Origin: a bacterium
GTDB lineage: Bacteria; UBP15; UBA6099; DSWB01
Assembly: GCA_020061125.1 (NCBI GenBank)
Contig: JAGUYV010000346.1
Coordinates: 1-8,720 of the forward strand
Length of the DNA stretch: 8,720 bases
Direction of reading: 5' to 3'
A program made the position numbers and the translations under genes. Below the pieces are notes generated by a model. The model was given only the letters and a program-made list of their open reading frames with translations. It had not been told where the DNA came from and did no database searches. This document shows positions 1,945 through 6,257 of the stretch, one piece after another. Every line of letters starts with the position of its first letter. The stretch's first letter is position 1.

Positions 1945-2559
1945 ATGAGCGTGCAGATAGTTGATGTGGAAGGCATCGAGAGCGGCATGATGGCCGCGGA
2001 CGACATATTGGCCCTGGACGGCACGGTGATCGTGCGCAAGGGCATCGAATTGGAAGGGCGGCACATGCGCCTGTTCAAGCGGGCGCTCATATCCCAGGTG
2101 CGCGTGGTGCGCGGGGAAAAGCCGCCCGAGGGCAGGGATTCCATCCACATTGACGAATATGCAAACAACCTGGCGCACCTCAAAGCCGCGCGCATTCTGA
2201 TAGTGGACGACTCGAAATTTCTGCGGTTCAAGCTACAGAAAGCGCTTGTCGCTGCGGGGCTGAATGTTGTGGGCATGGCCGAAGACGGGCAGCAGGCCGT
2301 GGCTGCGGCGCGTGAGCTGCAGCCCACGCTGGTGACCATGGACATCGAGATGCCAAACTTTGACGGGCTGTCCGCGGTGGCGCCCGTGCGCGAGGCCTCA
2401 CCCGGCGCCGAGGTGGTCATGATTTCCTCGGCCGGAGACGAAGAGCGCGTGCTTCTCGCCCTTGCCGGCGGGGCCATGGATTTCATTCACAAACCCATTG
2501 ACCCGGTGGCCACTGTGCGCGCCATCATCAACATCATCATTGTGTCCAGGGCTTATTGA
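1945..2559 (+). CDS. Response regulator: HD-GYP-type N-terminal module plus CheY-like receiver
   Basis: 204 residues. Residues 83-200 form a receiver domain: acidic pair Asp88/Asp89, phosphoacceptor Asp133 in VTMDIEMP, Ser161 at the switch Ser/Thr position, and Lys183 in HKP. Residues 5-56 (IESGMMAADDI...DGTVIVRKGIEL) resemble the short module usually found just before HD-GYP domains, but there is no HD-GYP domain here. The protein is cytoplasmic and has no DNA-binding domain. It is the only receiver protein in the window apart from CheB, so it may take phosphate from CheA and act as the CheY-like output; this is inferred. The start ATG 1945 was chosen because AAAGGACGG (1930-1938) precedes it at good distance. 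In-frame ATGs at 1888, 1897 and 1927 exist but have weaker support. It is the first gene after the operon promoter. Confidence 0.88.
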   Translation: MSVQIVDVEGIESGMMAADDILALDGTVIVRKGIELEGRHMRLFKRALISQVRVVRGEKPPEGRDSIHIDEYANNLAHLKAARILIVDDSKFLRFKLQKALVAAGLNVVGMAEDGQQAVAAARELQPTLVTMDIEMPNFDGLSAVAPVREASPGAEVVMISSAGDEERVLLALAGGAMDFIHKPIDPVATVRAIINIIIVSRAY

Positions 2560-2613: not shown

Positions 2614-3270
2614 ATGACCGGAAATTTCTCAACGGAAAACAGACGCCATTACGAAACCCTGGGGCTTGCGCCCGGCGCGGGCGTGCGCGAGGTGAAAAAA
2701 CAGGCGCGCATGCTTCTGCTGCGCTTTCATCCGGACTTGAACCCGCAAAACCGCGAGTTCTGCGAGGAAAAAACCAAGGGGATTGCGGCGGCGTACACGG
2801 CGCTGCTGCAATGGCTGCGCCAGAGCGGGGACGCAGAGGAGGCTGAAGCGGCCGCGCCCGCCGCGGGCGCGGCTCTGGTTTTCGAGCTGTCGCACAGGCT
2901 GTTCGCGCTTCCCGCGGCGCAGGTGCGCGGCGTGTTGCGTTTGAGGGACGCACGCCTCGAGGACTTGAGCATCGTCTCCGGCGCGTTCCCATATATCTGC
3001 GGCGTGTTTCACAGCCGGGGAGAACTGGTCATGCTGTGGAATCTGCACGCGCAACTGGGCCTGCGCGAGCCGGCCGCGGATTCGGGCCTGGCGCGAGCCA
3101 TGCTGGTGCATGCCGAATGCGACGACACGGCCGCCGGGTTTCTAGCCGACGCCGTGCACGGCATGGCTGAATGCGAACAGGGCGCGGGCGGCGTTCTGGA
3201 TACGCCTCATGGACATGCCACGGTTCTCGACCTGCGTGAGCTGCTGTTCGGCGATGCGCAAGGGTTTTAA
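2614..3270 (+). CDS. J-domain protein fused to a CheW-like domain
   Basis: 218 residues with two domains. Residues 12-70 match a DnaJ J-domain: HYETLGL opening; helix II with basic residues Arg25, Lys28, Lys29, Arg32 and Arg37; the HPD motif at 39-41, which is needed to stimulate Hsp70 ATPase; then helix III with the I..AY..L pattern at 57-64. Residues 71-86 are an Ala/Glu-rich linker. Residues 87-214 follow the CheW fold: FELSHRLFALPAAQVRGVLRL, GVFHSRGELVMLWNLHAQLGL (CheW proteins usually read GVINLRGxxxPVIDL here), AMLVHAE and TVLDLRELLFG. The conserved NLRG is SRGE (134-137) and the following proline is lost, so receptor or CheA contacts may differ. The suggested role is a co-chaperone adaptor at the chemosensory array (inference). 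The start ATG 2614 lies 11 residues before the J-domain; its ribosome binding site is weak. It lies 54 bases after the response regulator. Confidence 0.85.
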   Translation: MTGNFSTENRRHYETLGLAPGAGVREVKKQARMLLLRFHPDLNPQNREFCEEKTKGIAAAYTALLQWLRQSGDAEEAEAAAPAAGAALVFELSHRLFALPAAQVRGVLRLRDARLEDLSIVSGAFPYICGVFHSRGELVMLWNLHAQLGLREPAADSGLARAMLVHAECDDTAAGFLADAVHGMAECEQGAGGVLDTPHGHATVLDLRELLFGDAQGF

Positions 3271-3352: not shown

Positions 3353-3886
3353 ATGCAAACGGACCACAGTGCGCAGCCGCGCGAAGAAAAAAGAGCCGTG
3401 CTTTTCGAGTTGTGCGGCGAAGCGTACGCCATAGCCCTCGAAGCCGTGGAGGAAGTGATCCGCGTGGGTGATATATCGCGCGTACCACAGTCTCCGGCGT
3501 TCGTGGAGGGCGTGATCAATCTGCGCGGGTTTGTGATTCCGGTGGTGGATCTGGCGCGGCGGTTCGGCGTGGGTTCCGTGGAGCGCACCCGGTCCGCGCG
3601 CATCATGGTCACGGCCGTGGAGGACCAGTTCGTGGGCGCGCTCGTGGATCGCGTGCTGGACGCGCTCACACTGGACGCCTCGGACATCGAGCCGCCGTCG
3701 CGGCTTCTGCGCAGCGCCATCCGGGCGGATTACCTGCTCGGGTTTTTCGAGTCCGGCGGCGCGCTGGTCAAGCTGCTGGATTTCGACAAAGTATTTTCCA
3801 TCGAGGAAATCGGAGCGCTGTCGGAAATGCGGCAGGGCGCGGACCAGGCGTCCGGTTCCTGGGAACGGGAAGGAGACAAAGCATGA
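3353..3886 (+). CDS. cheW: CheW coupling protein (first copy)
   Basis: 177 residues. CheW bridges chemoreceptors and the CheA P5 domain in the cytoplasmic array. A single CheW fold spans about residues 14-150: [23 protein letters not shown] at the start, the hallmark GVINLRG with NLRG at 56-59, then [22 protein letters not shown] at 96-105, and [11 protein letters not shown] near the end. About 27 hydrophilic residues follow the fold. ATG 3353 is preceded by GGAG (3343-3346) at six bases. An open frame continues upstream to 3209, but it would overlap the previous gene and lies before the domain. The stop overlaps the chemoreceptor start (ATGA at 3883-3886), so the two are probably translationally coupled, as expected for proteins that assemble together. 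Confidence 0.93.
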
Positions 3887-5727
3887 GCACAGGATCGAAA
3901 ATGCAGGCCAATTATCTGACGGGGCCGGTTCTGCGGCTGTTTCTGGCGGCGGCGTGCGGCGCCGCGGCGCTGATTGCGGGCGGCGTGTATCTCGAGGAGC
4001 AGCTTTTGTACATCGCCGCCGCGGGCGTGCTCGCTCTGGCCGTGGCCGCGTACTTGAGCTGCCGCGTCAGCACCGACGCCGCCATGCGCGAAAAGACCGA
4101 AACCGAGGCCAACACCATGGATCTCGCCATGGGCATCTCCGAGATCTTCGAGGCCCTGTCCCAGGTGACCGCCACGGGCGATCTGGGCATCCGAGCGCCC
4201 CGAAGCCAGTCCCAGGAAATGCTGGCCAGGCTCTCCGACATGCTCAACACCATGCTCGAAAACCTGCAGCACGGGGTGTCCCAGACCGACGCGGAGCATG
4301 CCTATGTGCGCGGCCGCGTGGACCATCTGCTCGAGGTCATGAACAAAGTGGAGGAGGGCGATCTGGACATTCGCGCGGACATCGTGAAGCCGGACGACGA
4401 GATGGGCCGCCTGTGCCGGGGCGTGAATGAGATGATCCAGGAATTGCAGGAAACGCGCGCCGAGTCCGACGCCGCAAACATGGACATGGCTTTGAGCCTG
4501 TCGGAAACCTTCGAGGCGCTGCGCGCCGTGTCGAGCGGCGACCTCACGCAGTCCCTCACCCCCGGCTCCTCCAACGAACTGTTCGTGAAACTGGCCGAAG
4601 TGGTCAACACCACCATAGAAAACCTGCGCGGCCTGATCGCCAAGATGAACGACGCGGTCACGCACATCCGGCGGTTCACCGAGGACTTCCAGTTGACGAC
4701 CGAGCAGGTGCGGCGCGGCGCGAGCCAGATCGCGGATTCGGTGCAGGACATGGCCAAAGGCTCCGAGGTGCAGAACAGCAGCGTGCAGGAGACCTCGGCG
4801 ATTCTGGACAGCCTGCTCAAGACCATAGACCAGATCGCCAAGGGCGCGCAGGAGCAGGCCCAGGGCGTGGAGCAGACCTCGCGCATCGTCAACGGAATGT
4901 CCGCCACCATCGAGGGCACGGTGGCGCGGCTCAAGAACATGATCGGCGTGTTCCGCGCGTCTGCGGACCGCGCCACCGCAGGCCGCGACGCCATCGCCAC
5001 GGCCATTGACAACATCAACCGCGTGACCGAAACCGTGGAACAGTCCGCGGCCATGGTGCAGCAACTCGGCGCAAGTTCCAAGCGCATCGGGGACATCACC
5101 GAGGTCATAGACGACATCGCCGAGCAGACCAACCTGCTGGCGCTGAACGCGGCCATCGAGGCCGGACGCGCGGGCGAGCACGGACGCGGATTCGCGGTCG
5201 TGGCCACAGAGGTGCGCAAGCTGGCCGAACGCTCGGCCAAGGCCACGCGCCAGATCACCGAACTGATCCGCGGCGTGCAGGATGAAACGGGCCGTGCCGT
5301 GGAAGGCATGACCCAGGGCGCGCGCCAGGTGCGCGACGGCGCTCGCCTGGGCGAGGAGGCCCGCTCCGCCCTGGCCGACATCATGGGCGCCATCGCCGAA
5401 ACCGACCGAGAGATTATGACCGTGTCCGGCGCGCTCGAAGACCTGGTCGAGCAAAGCCACCGCATCGTGGATTCCATGGACATGGTGGCCAGCGTGGTGC
5501 AGGAGAACACCGCGGCCACCGAGGAAATGGCGGCCAGCTCCCACGAGGTCGAGGAATCCATGCGCCGCGTGGCCGCGATCTCCGAGGACAACGCCGCGGC
5601 CGCCGAGGAAATTTCCGCTTCGGTCGAGGAGCAGACCGCGGGCATCATCGAGGTGTCCAACGCCGTGGCCGCCTTGAGTGAAATGGCCCGCGAACTCGAA
5701 TCCGGGTCACAGTCCTTCACCCTGTAG
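3883..5727 (+). CDS. Methyl-accepting chemotaxis protein without periplasmic sensor domain, with tandem HAMP-like segments
   Basis: 614 residues. Two hydrophobic segments (about 14-37 and 41-60) are separated by only EEQ or so, making a membrane hairpin with no ligand-binding domain outside. Three HAMP-like segments follow: about 86-130 (ending GDLGIRAP...NTMLENL), 143-190 (GDLDIRAD...DEMGRL) and 206-250 (GDLTQSL...NTTIENL). The first and third share near-repeated sequence (SEIFEAL and SETFEAL). The signalling domain spans about 270-614, with the hairpin tip at 407-450 ([38 protein letters not shown]...), which binds CheA and CheW. Methylation-type sites sit at Glu547/548 ([10 protein letters not shown]) and Glu575/576 ([10 protein letters not shown]). 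There is no C-terminal CheR-docking pentapeptide. AAGGAG (3870-3875) lies seven bases before the ATG. It probably senses a cytoplasmic or membrane state, or a partner protein; the ligand is unknown. Confidence 0.93.
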
Positions 5728-5741
5728 CAGACGGTGCCGTT

Positions 5742-6257
5742 ATGAGCATGCAGCCCGCGCCCGCGCGGCGCAAATCCCTGTCCGGGCACAAAGCCCCGGA
5801 AGACCAAGGCGCGCTGTTCGTGATCTTCGAACTCGCGGCCGAGCGCTACGGCGCGGGCATTGACTGCGTGCAGGAAATCATCAAGCCGCCCGGCATCACG
5901 GAAATTCCCCATGCTCCCGAGTATCTGTCGGGGGTCATCAACCTGCGCGGCCGCATCGTGCCCGTGGTGGACCTGCGCCGCAAGCTGCACATGGAGCCGC
6001 GGCCTCTCACTCCGGACACGCGCATTATTGTGGCCCTGGCGGACGGGCACACGCTGGGCATGATCGTGGACCGCGCCCTGGCCGTGCGTCCAATCCCCGA
6101 GCGCCTCATCGAACCCCCGCCGCCCATGTTCACCGCGGCCGTGGATCCCGGCGCCATTTCGGGCCTGGCCAGAATTGAGGGAGAACTCGTCACTCTCCTC
6201 GATCTCCGGTCCGTTCTCGCTGCAAACAACCGGCCCGCGCCGGACGCAAACGGGTGA
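5742..6257 (+). CDS. cheW: CheW coupling protein (second copy)
   Basis: 171 residues. After a polar N-terminal extension of about 22 residues, one CheW fold runs from ALFVIFELAAERYGAGIDCVQEII through GVINLRGRIVPVVDLRRKLHM (NLRG at 67-70), TLGMIVDRALAVRPI and GELVTLLDLRSVL. It keeps the core signature better than the J-domain fusion and differs clearly from the first CheW, so it is not a recent duplicate. It begins 14 bases after the receptor stop with only a weak ribosome binding site, suggesting coupling to upstream translation; ATG 5748 is an alternative start. CheA follows after 7 bases. Having one CheW on each side of the receptor gene suggests that both serve the same array, but which one binds CheA best cannot be told. 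Confidence 0.93.
   Translation: MSMQPAPARRKSLSGHKAPEDQGALFVIFELAAERYGAGIDCVQEIIKPPGITEIPHAPEYLSGVINLRGRIVPVVDLRRKLHMEPRPLTPDTRIIVALADGHTLGMIVDRALAVRPIPERLIEPPPPMFTAAVDPGAISGLARIEGELVTLLDLRSVLAANNRPAPDANG

Follow-up and report, generated by a model that had tools for sequence, protein, structure and literature searches.

The window analysed here, an 8,720-nucleotide stretch of bacterial DNA, encodes a protein in which an N-terminal J-domain is joined to a diverged CheW domain (J-CheW), and the same two-domain protein was found in a genome of another phylum (G265). The fusion protein is real; both of its domains are known, but their combination is new. Neither Pfam nor NCBIfam has an entry naming a J-domain together with CheW, and a search of the open-access literature for J-domain or DnaJ and CheW returned no paper with a title or abstract on such a fusion, although an earlier mention elsewhere is possible; this agrees with the earlier note on this DNA, which knew of no such system. 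Judged from the sequences, the presence of the fusion in two phyla suggests a built-in link between Hsp70 chaperones and sensory arrays. In the window, the gene is the second of a co-directed run that encodes a response regulator, J-CheW, CheW, a chemoreceptor (MCP), CheW, CheA, and CheB (Table 1).

The open reading frame translates into 218 residues without an internal stop codon, and both of its parts match Pfam families above the curated cut-offs: DnaJ (PF00226) at residues 12-64 with E = 2.4e-9 and 37.6 bits (cut-off 27.8), and CheW (PF01584) at residues 87-189 with E = 6e-13 and 49 bits (cut-off 23.5). The fusion within a chemosensory operon, which the earlier note had read from the DNA, is thereby confirmed. 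When the halves were scanned separately, they scored 40.4 bits (DnaJ) and 50.9 bits (CheW), so that the lack of a J-domain match, for which the earlier note had allowed, was not borne out. The proposed domain limits hold in part: within the suggested J-domain at residues 12-70, the HPD motif (39-41) and a basic helix II are in place, but the Pfam match ends near residue 64 and helix III extends to about 70; likewise, the CheW fold proposed for residues 87-214 is matched as far as residue 189, but its C-terminal third is shortened, with the match ending at position 96 of the 138 profile positions. DnaJ and CheW were the only Pfam families above cut-off in the protein, with no Response_reg or CheR match, and neither G/F nor zinc nor C-terminal substrate-binding domains were found at these cut-offs. 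Furthermore, the NCBIfam DnaJ models scored far under cut-off, and the TopJ models were unmatched. In a sequence search of the PDB, J-domains were the top matches (from E = 1.4e-9 over residues 10-69), and CheW chains matched weakly (E 0.75-0.77), which points to a strong divergence of the CheW part. The G+C content by codon position keeps one phase on either side of the junction between the two parts, and there is thus no sign of a frameshift.

Table 1. Features of the window, with positions counted from its first nucleotide.
Feature	Position	Strand	Basis
Response regulator gene that opens the operon: receiver preceded by an N-terminal segment of no known family	1945..2559	+	Pfam Response_reg 9.8e-24
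J-CheW fusion gene, 218 aa	2614..3270	+	Single ORF; Pfam DnaJ and CheW; G265 homologue of the same architecture
J-domain, residues 12-64 (helix III to ~70)	2647..2805	+	Pfam PF00226 2.4e-9; AF2 pLDDT 92-96
Ala31, aligned with Tyr25 of E. coli DnaJ (G265: Ser)	2704..2706	+	Alignment of 49 J-domains
HPD motif, residues 39-41	2728..2736	+	Translation; invariant in 49/49 aligned J-domains
Thr54, aligned with Phe47 in the KFK motif of E. coli DnaJ (G265: Thr)	2773..2775	+	Alignment of 49 J-domains
Ala/Glu-rich linker, residues 71-86	2824..2871	+	No Pfam family above cut-off; pLDDT <60 past residue 70
Diverged CheW domain, residues 87-215 (Pfam match 87-189)	2872..3258	+	Pfam PF01584 6e-13; Foldseek to CheW structures
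Region with 5-residue insertion, otherwise only in the CheW domain of the G265 fusion	2938..2967	+	E38-R62 spacing 28 vs 20-25 in 48 others
HSRG, residues 133-136, replacing NLRG; His common to the G265 fusion	3010..3021	+	Alignment
CheW (A)	3353..3886	+	Pfam CheW 1.4e-34
Chemoreceptor (MCP) with HAMP domains	3883..5727	+	Pfam MCPsignal 1.3e-46, HAMP
CheW (B)	5742..6257	+	Pfam CheW 2.5e-36
CheA kinase: Hpt, dimerisation, ATPase, CheW-like P5	6265..7953	+	Pfam
CheB, truncated by contig end	7996..8720	+	Pfam Response_reg, CheB_methylest

AlphaFold2 modelled the J part with high confidence (block pLDDT 92-96, residues 11-70), with helices at residues 24-37 and 44-70 flanking the HPD motif. In the model of the whole protein, which drew on no G265 rows, the J-domain alone was confident, and pLDDT dropped below 60 past residue 70. 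Foldseek matched the J part to J-domain structures with a probability of 1.00, although with weak E-values (best 7.5e-3, obtained with the whole, poor model). The CheW part modelled alone from a four-row alignment reached a mean pLDDT of 52, which is low confidence; the prediction for the protein alone that the earlier note had called for therefore succeeded for the J part but not for the CheW part. All top Foldseek matches of this CheW-part model were CheW or CheA-P5 structures (best E = 4.6e-6, TtCheW, 2qdl). Since the rows of the underlying alignment were themselves CheWs, this result alone is weak support, and the predicted assignment to CheW is carried by the Pfam match rather than by Foldseek.

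The second full match was found in a broad sample of 386 genomes. The G265 homologue comprises 225 residues, with Pfam matches to DnaJ (4e-13, 49.7 bits) and CheW (1.4e-17), and is 29% identical to the window protein over 189 residues (E = 1e-27); both halves of this pair exceed the scores of 500 shuffles by a wide margin (z = 32 for the J part and z = 18 for the CheW part). It begins right at the J-domain, after a GAGGAGG ribosome-binding site, and heads the gene order CheC-CheD-CheB-CheR-HDOD-FliM, in which CheR, HDOD, and FliM were named by reading the sequences, without a profile scan; cheA and MCP genes are not adjacent. Because an independent genome, G265, carries the same two-domain protein, J-CheW is not an assembly artefact. 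In both genomes the fusion occurs in a chemosensory operon, but its partner genes there are not the same, and the idea that it might always sit in the same operon has to be given up.

The J-CheW family is rare. The search covered 7 genomes of the window's phylum, 74 of the G265 phylum, 3 and 80 of further phyla, 386 sampled from one large phylum, and the broad sample, and among these roughly 900 distinct genomes no third J-CheW was found besides those of the window genome (G000) and G265. The recurrence in other genomes that the earlier note had proposed to look for thus extends to another phylum but not to the 6 other genomes of the window's own phylum, and the 73 other genomes of the G265 phylum likewise lack the fusion. 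No J-CheW was found in viral contigs or in plasmids. A scan of genome contigs with the two-row alignment returned 20 J-proteins, in none of which a CheW part could be recognised (the patterns are short, and other fusions are possible); read through, their open reading frames encode DnaJ, CbpA-like, J-TPR, or other J-proteins. Rejected as fusion candidates were L052, a CbpA-like protein covering one part, L053, a plain CheW, L060, in which the CheW part alone matched, and L061, in which the J part alone matched.

Several features connect the two fusions to each other. Their J-domains, which are about 50% identical, are reciprocal best matches among 49 J-domains and form one clade in the J-domain tree (97/92), at which two long branches meet. 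Their CheW domains group with support of 91/47, and of 92/90 once other long rows were removed. Among 50 CheW/P5 domains, a spacing of 28 residues between the sites equivalent to Glu38 and Arg62 of E. coli CheW is confined to the two fusions (20-25 residues in the other 48), and they alone have His at the position of Asn60. They also have in common an EEKTK motif in the J-domain, the loss of two Hsp70-contact residues (Y25 and F47, see below), the domain order, and the position of the linker. As the J-domain clade agrees with the CheW insertion and His, a single origin of both fusions is likely, though not proven. Furthermore, CheW A of the window is closest to a CheW encoded on G265 contig C24 (44% identity), and the P5 domain of the window CheA is closest to the CheA of the same contig, which suggests that a chemosensory class including J-CheW may be common to both lineages, whether inherited or transferred. 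Closest to the fusion J-domains in the tree (82/77) is a J-TPR protein of Candidatus Anammoxibacter (L031:7992-8810), which has KTK instead of KFK in helix III.

With respect to Hsp70 partnership, both fusions have kept HPD, a basic helix II, Arg at the position of K26, and also H33 and D35. The position of Y25 is occupied by Ala in the window protein and by Ser in G265, and that of F47 by Thr in both; the other J-domains have Tyr or Phe at position 25 in 47 of 47 cases and Phe, Met, or Leu at position 47 in 46 of 47, the exception being L031 with Thr. According to a simulation study (PMC13012618), D35, K26, Y25, H33, and F47 of the J-domain lie against R167, E217, L391, and L392 of Hsp70, and this contact set is incomplete in both fusions through the replacement of Y25 and F47. 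Moreover, according to PMC1906734, Ala at either Y25 or F47 inactivates the tested DnaJ proteins, and Leu or Met is tolerated at position 47. Because both residues are replaced, ordinary stimulation of DnaK by the J-domain of J-CheW appears doubtful, and the recruitment of DnaK put forward in the earlier note is not supported, given that this part of the DnaK contact is lost in both fusions. The conserved HPD motif argues that an Hsp70 may still be met in some way. The other option of the earlier note, in which the J-domain has been co-opted as a docking module, is a possible alternative.

The CheW domain has also changed at known functional positions. In place of INLRG, the window protein has FHSRG and G265 has THYQG, with the N and L of the motif lost; Arg62 is kept in the former and lost in the latter, and the E38 position is Gly or Ser in the fusions. 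E. coli CheW with R62A still binds, though chemotaxis is impaired, and receptor binding is disrupted by E38A (PMC3828127). Since the N and L of INLRG as well as E38 are lost, binding of J-CheW to arrays is not assured. The loss of E38 says little by itself, because plain CheWs lose it too; it affects roughly one in four of the CheWs sampled and was dropped as a hallmark of the fusion. The longer loop between the E38 and R62 positions is the clearest mark of the family, and from the E. coli study (PMC3828127) we infer that it falls in the region linking the receptor and kinase sites.

Taken as a whole, we tentatively read J-CheW as an auxiliary array scaffold and class-C-like J-domain protein of single origin that would recruit an Hsp70 locally, a reading to which we give just short of an even chance. 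The CheW domain, whose loop is longer than usual, would take or flank a position of CheW or CheA-P5 and thereby fix the J-domain to the array. There the HPD loop would recruit an Hsp70 on site, and the absence of Y25 and F47 would probably make this contact weak or alter its specificity. The recruited Hsp70 might then help to assemble, remodel, or clear CheA/receptor complexes, and the tethering, by raising the local concentration, could offset the weaker Hsp70 contact. A precedent for a link between Hsp70 and arrays is the interaction of HtpG with CheA in E. coli, which is lost without DnaJ and CbpA (PMC3708813); further precedents are the Hsp70 StkA, which acts upstream of the Dif chemosensory proteins of M. 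xanthus (PMC4319316), and Mycoplasma TopJ, which is a component of the motility organelle (PMC4669176). Weighing against the proposed scaffold and Hsp70 recruitment are the restriction to two genomes, the loss of Y25 and F47, and the composition of the operons, neither of which contains dnaK or grpE as far as they could be read. Possible, with less confidence, is a dedicated array chaperone present in at least two phyla, in which the CheW-borne J-domain and an ATP-driven Hsp70 would drive or gate array assembly, CheA activity, or receptor turnover.

The chief rival, which we place on the unlikely side, is that the J-domain does no Hsp70 work and serves as a passive helical docking or spacing module on a CheW-like scaffold, shaping or linking arrays. 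It would explain why Y25 and F47, at which Ala abolishes DnaJ function (PMC1906734), were lost in parallel in both fusions, and it has a precedent in the Treponema CheW-CheRlike protein, which has altered catalytic residues and keeps the array ordered (PMC7666581). However, HPD, for which the known role is Hsp70 contact, is intact in both proteins despite a J-domain identity of only about 50%, helix II is still basic, and so, as Arg, is the K26 position. Quite unlikely in our view is a role of J-CheW at adaptation or motor-side proteins (CheB, CheC, CheD, CheR, or the switch), with the CheW domain as an adaptor that carries the J-domain or an Hsp70 to these proteins instead of to the array core. 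Such a role would fit the G265 gene order, with no cheA or MCP beside the fusion, and the divergence of the CheW domain at motifs tied to the receptor and kinase sites, but the window gene adjoins CheW, MCP, and CheA genes, and adaptation genes act on receptors in any case.

The remaining rivals concern the fusion itself. We regard it as very unlikely that each fusion had its own origin from separate J and CheW parents, in which case they would form no family and have little functional meaning: while the CheW domains, searched pairwise on their own, are not mutual best matches, long branches meet in both trees, and there are just two cases from distant phyla, independent fusions would leave it to coincidence that both proteins have the CheW insertion and His as well as EEKTK, that both lack Y25 and F47, and that their domains and linker are placed alike. 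Scarcely credible is an accidental join of two unrelated genes by misassembly, gene decay, or the sequencing frameshift that the earlier note had raised. The window genome is a fragmented 4.1 Mb draft (513 contigs, 79% complete), and the C-terminal part of CheW is shortened, but the frame is open throughout, the G+C phase is the same on both sides, and the same fusion exists in G265, where a good ribosome-binding site directly precedes the J-domain.

Read as a scaffold that carries a J-domain, J-CheW resembles several known systems in part. The CheW-CheRlike protein of the F2 systems of Treponema denticola (PMC7666581) likewise combines CheW with a second domain that has altered functional residues, in a chemosensory system that also has ordinary CheW and CheA; its second domain, however, is a C-terminal CheR-like methyltransferase fold instead of an N-terminal J-domain, and it was shown to bind CheA and to order the array. 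CheV (CheW and receiver) also adds a regulatory domain to a CheW-like scaffold, but J-CheW has an N-terminal J-domain in place of the receiver. With DnaJ, CbpA, and other DnaK co-chaperones, J-CheW has in common the J-domain fold, HPD, and the basic helix II, and it differs from them in the replacement of Y25 and F47, in the use of CheW as a targeting domain, and in that no G/F, zinc, or C-terminal domain was found. Mycoplasma TopJ is a J-protein at a polar motility and adhesion organelle, named by NCBIfam for organelle assembly, but its targeting domains are different, and the TopJ models do not match J-CheW. In Nostoc DnaK1/DnaJ3 (PMC9239167) and Myxococcus StkA (PMC4319316), Hsp70 machinery is tied to motility signalling as well, though through separate proteins without fusion to a chemotaxis scaffold. 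Little is known about how arrays are assembled and renewed and about chaperone action there beyond general folding, and a scaffold with its own J-domain would offer a direct, gene-defined handle on the role of chaperones in arrays. If the J-domain no longer binds Hsp70, J-CheW would join Treponema CheW-CheRlike as another example of an apparently disabled domain that serves the array as a structural part.

Some observations on the operon and the host genomes should be added. The first 80 residues of the response regulator that opens the window operon have no Pfam family above cut-off, and a promoter-like site, recognised by consensus match only, lies ahead of this gene at 1814-1842. Divergent from the chemosensory operon, at positions 2-1654 on the minus strand, is a gene for an HdrA-like FAD/4Fe-4S oxidoreductase. 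A genome of the same order (G005) has a different chemosensory operon (L092:2349-12027), with two CheWs and a CheR-TPR protein and without J-CheW. CIRCE heat-shock operators were not found near the J-CheW gene in either the window or G265. The window genome encodes a canonical DnaK (contig C426) and a second Hsp70 (contig C49; L101, 2-2476, minus strand), the latter with an altered interdomain linker (GLVLVD) and followed by a 157-residue J-protein, with which it likely forms a dedicated Hsp70/J pair. On contig C45 of G265 (L100:8649-15921), cheA is divergent from hrcA-grpE-dnaK-dnaJ, with a CIRCE-like operator between them (L100:11009-11035), so that the genome with the second J-CheW also pairs cheA with heat-shock genes.
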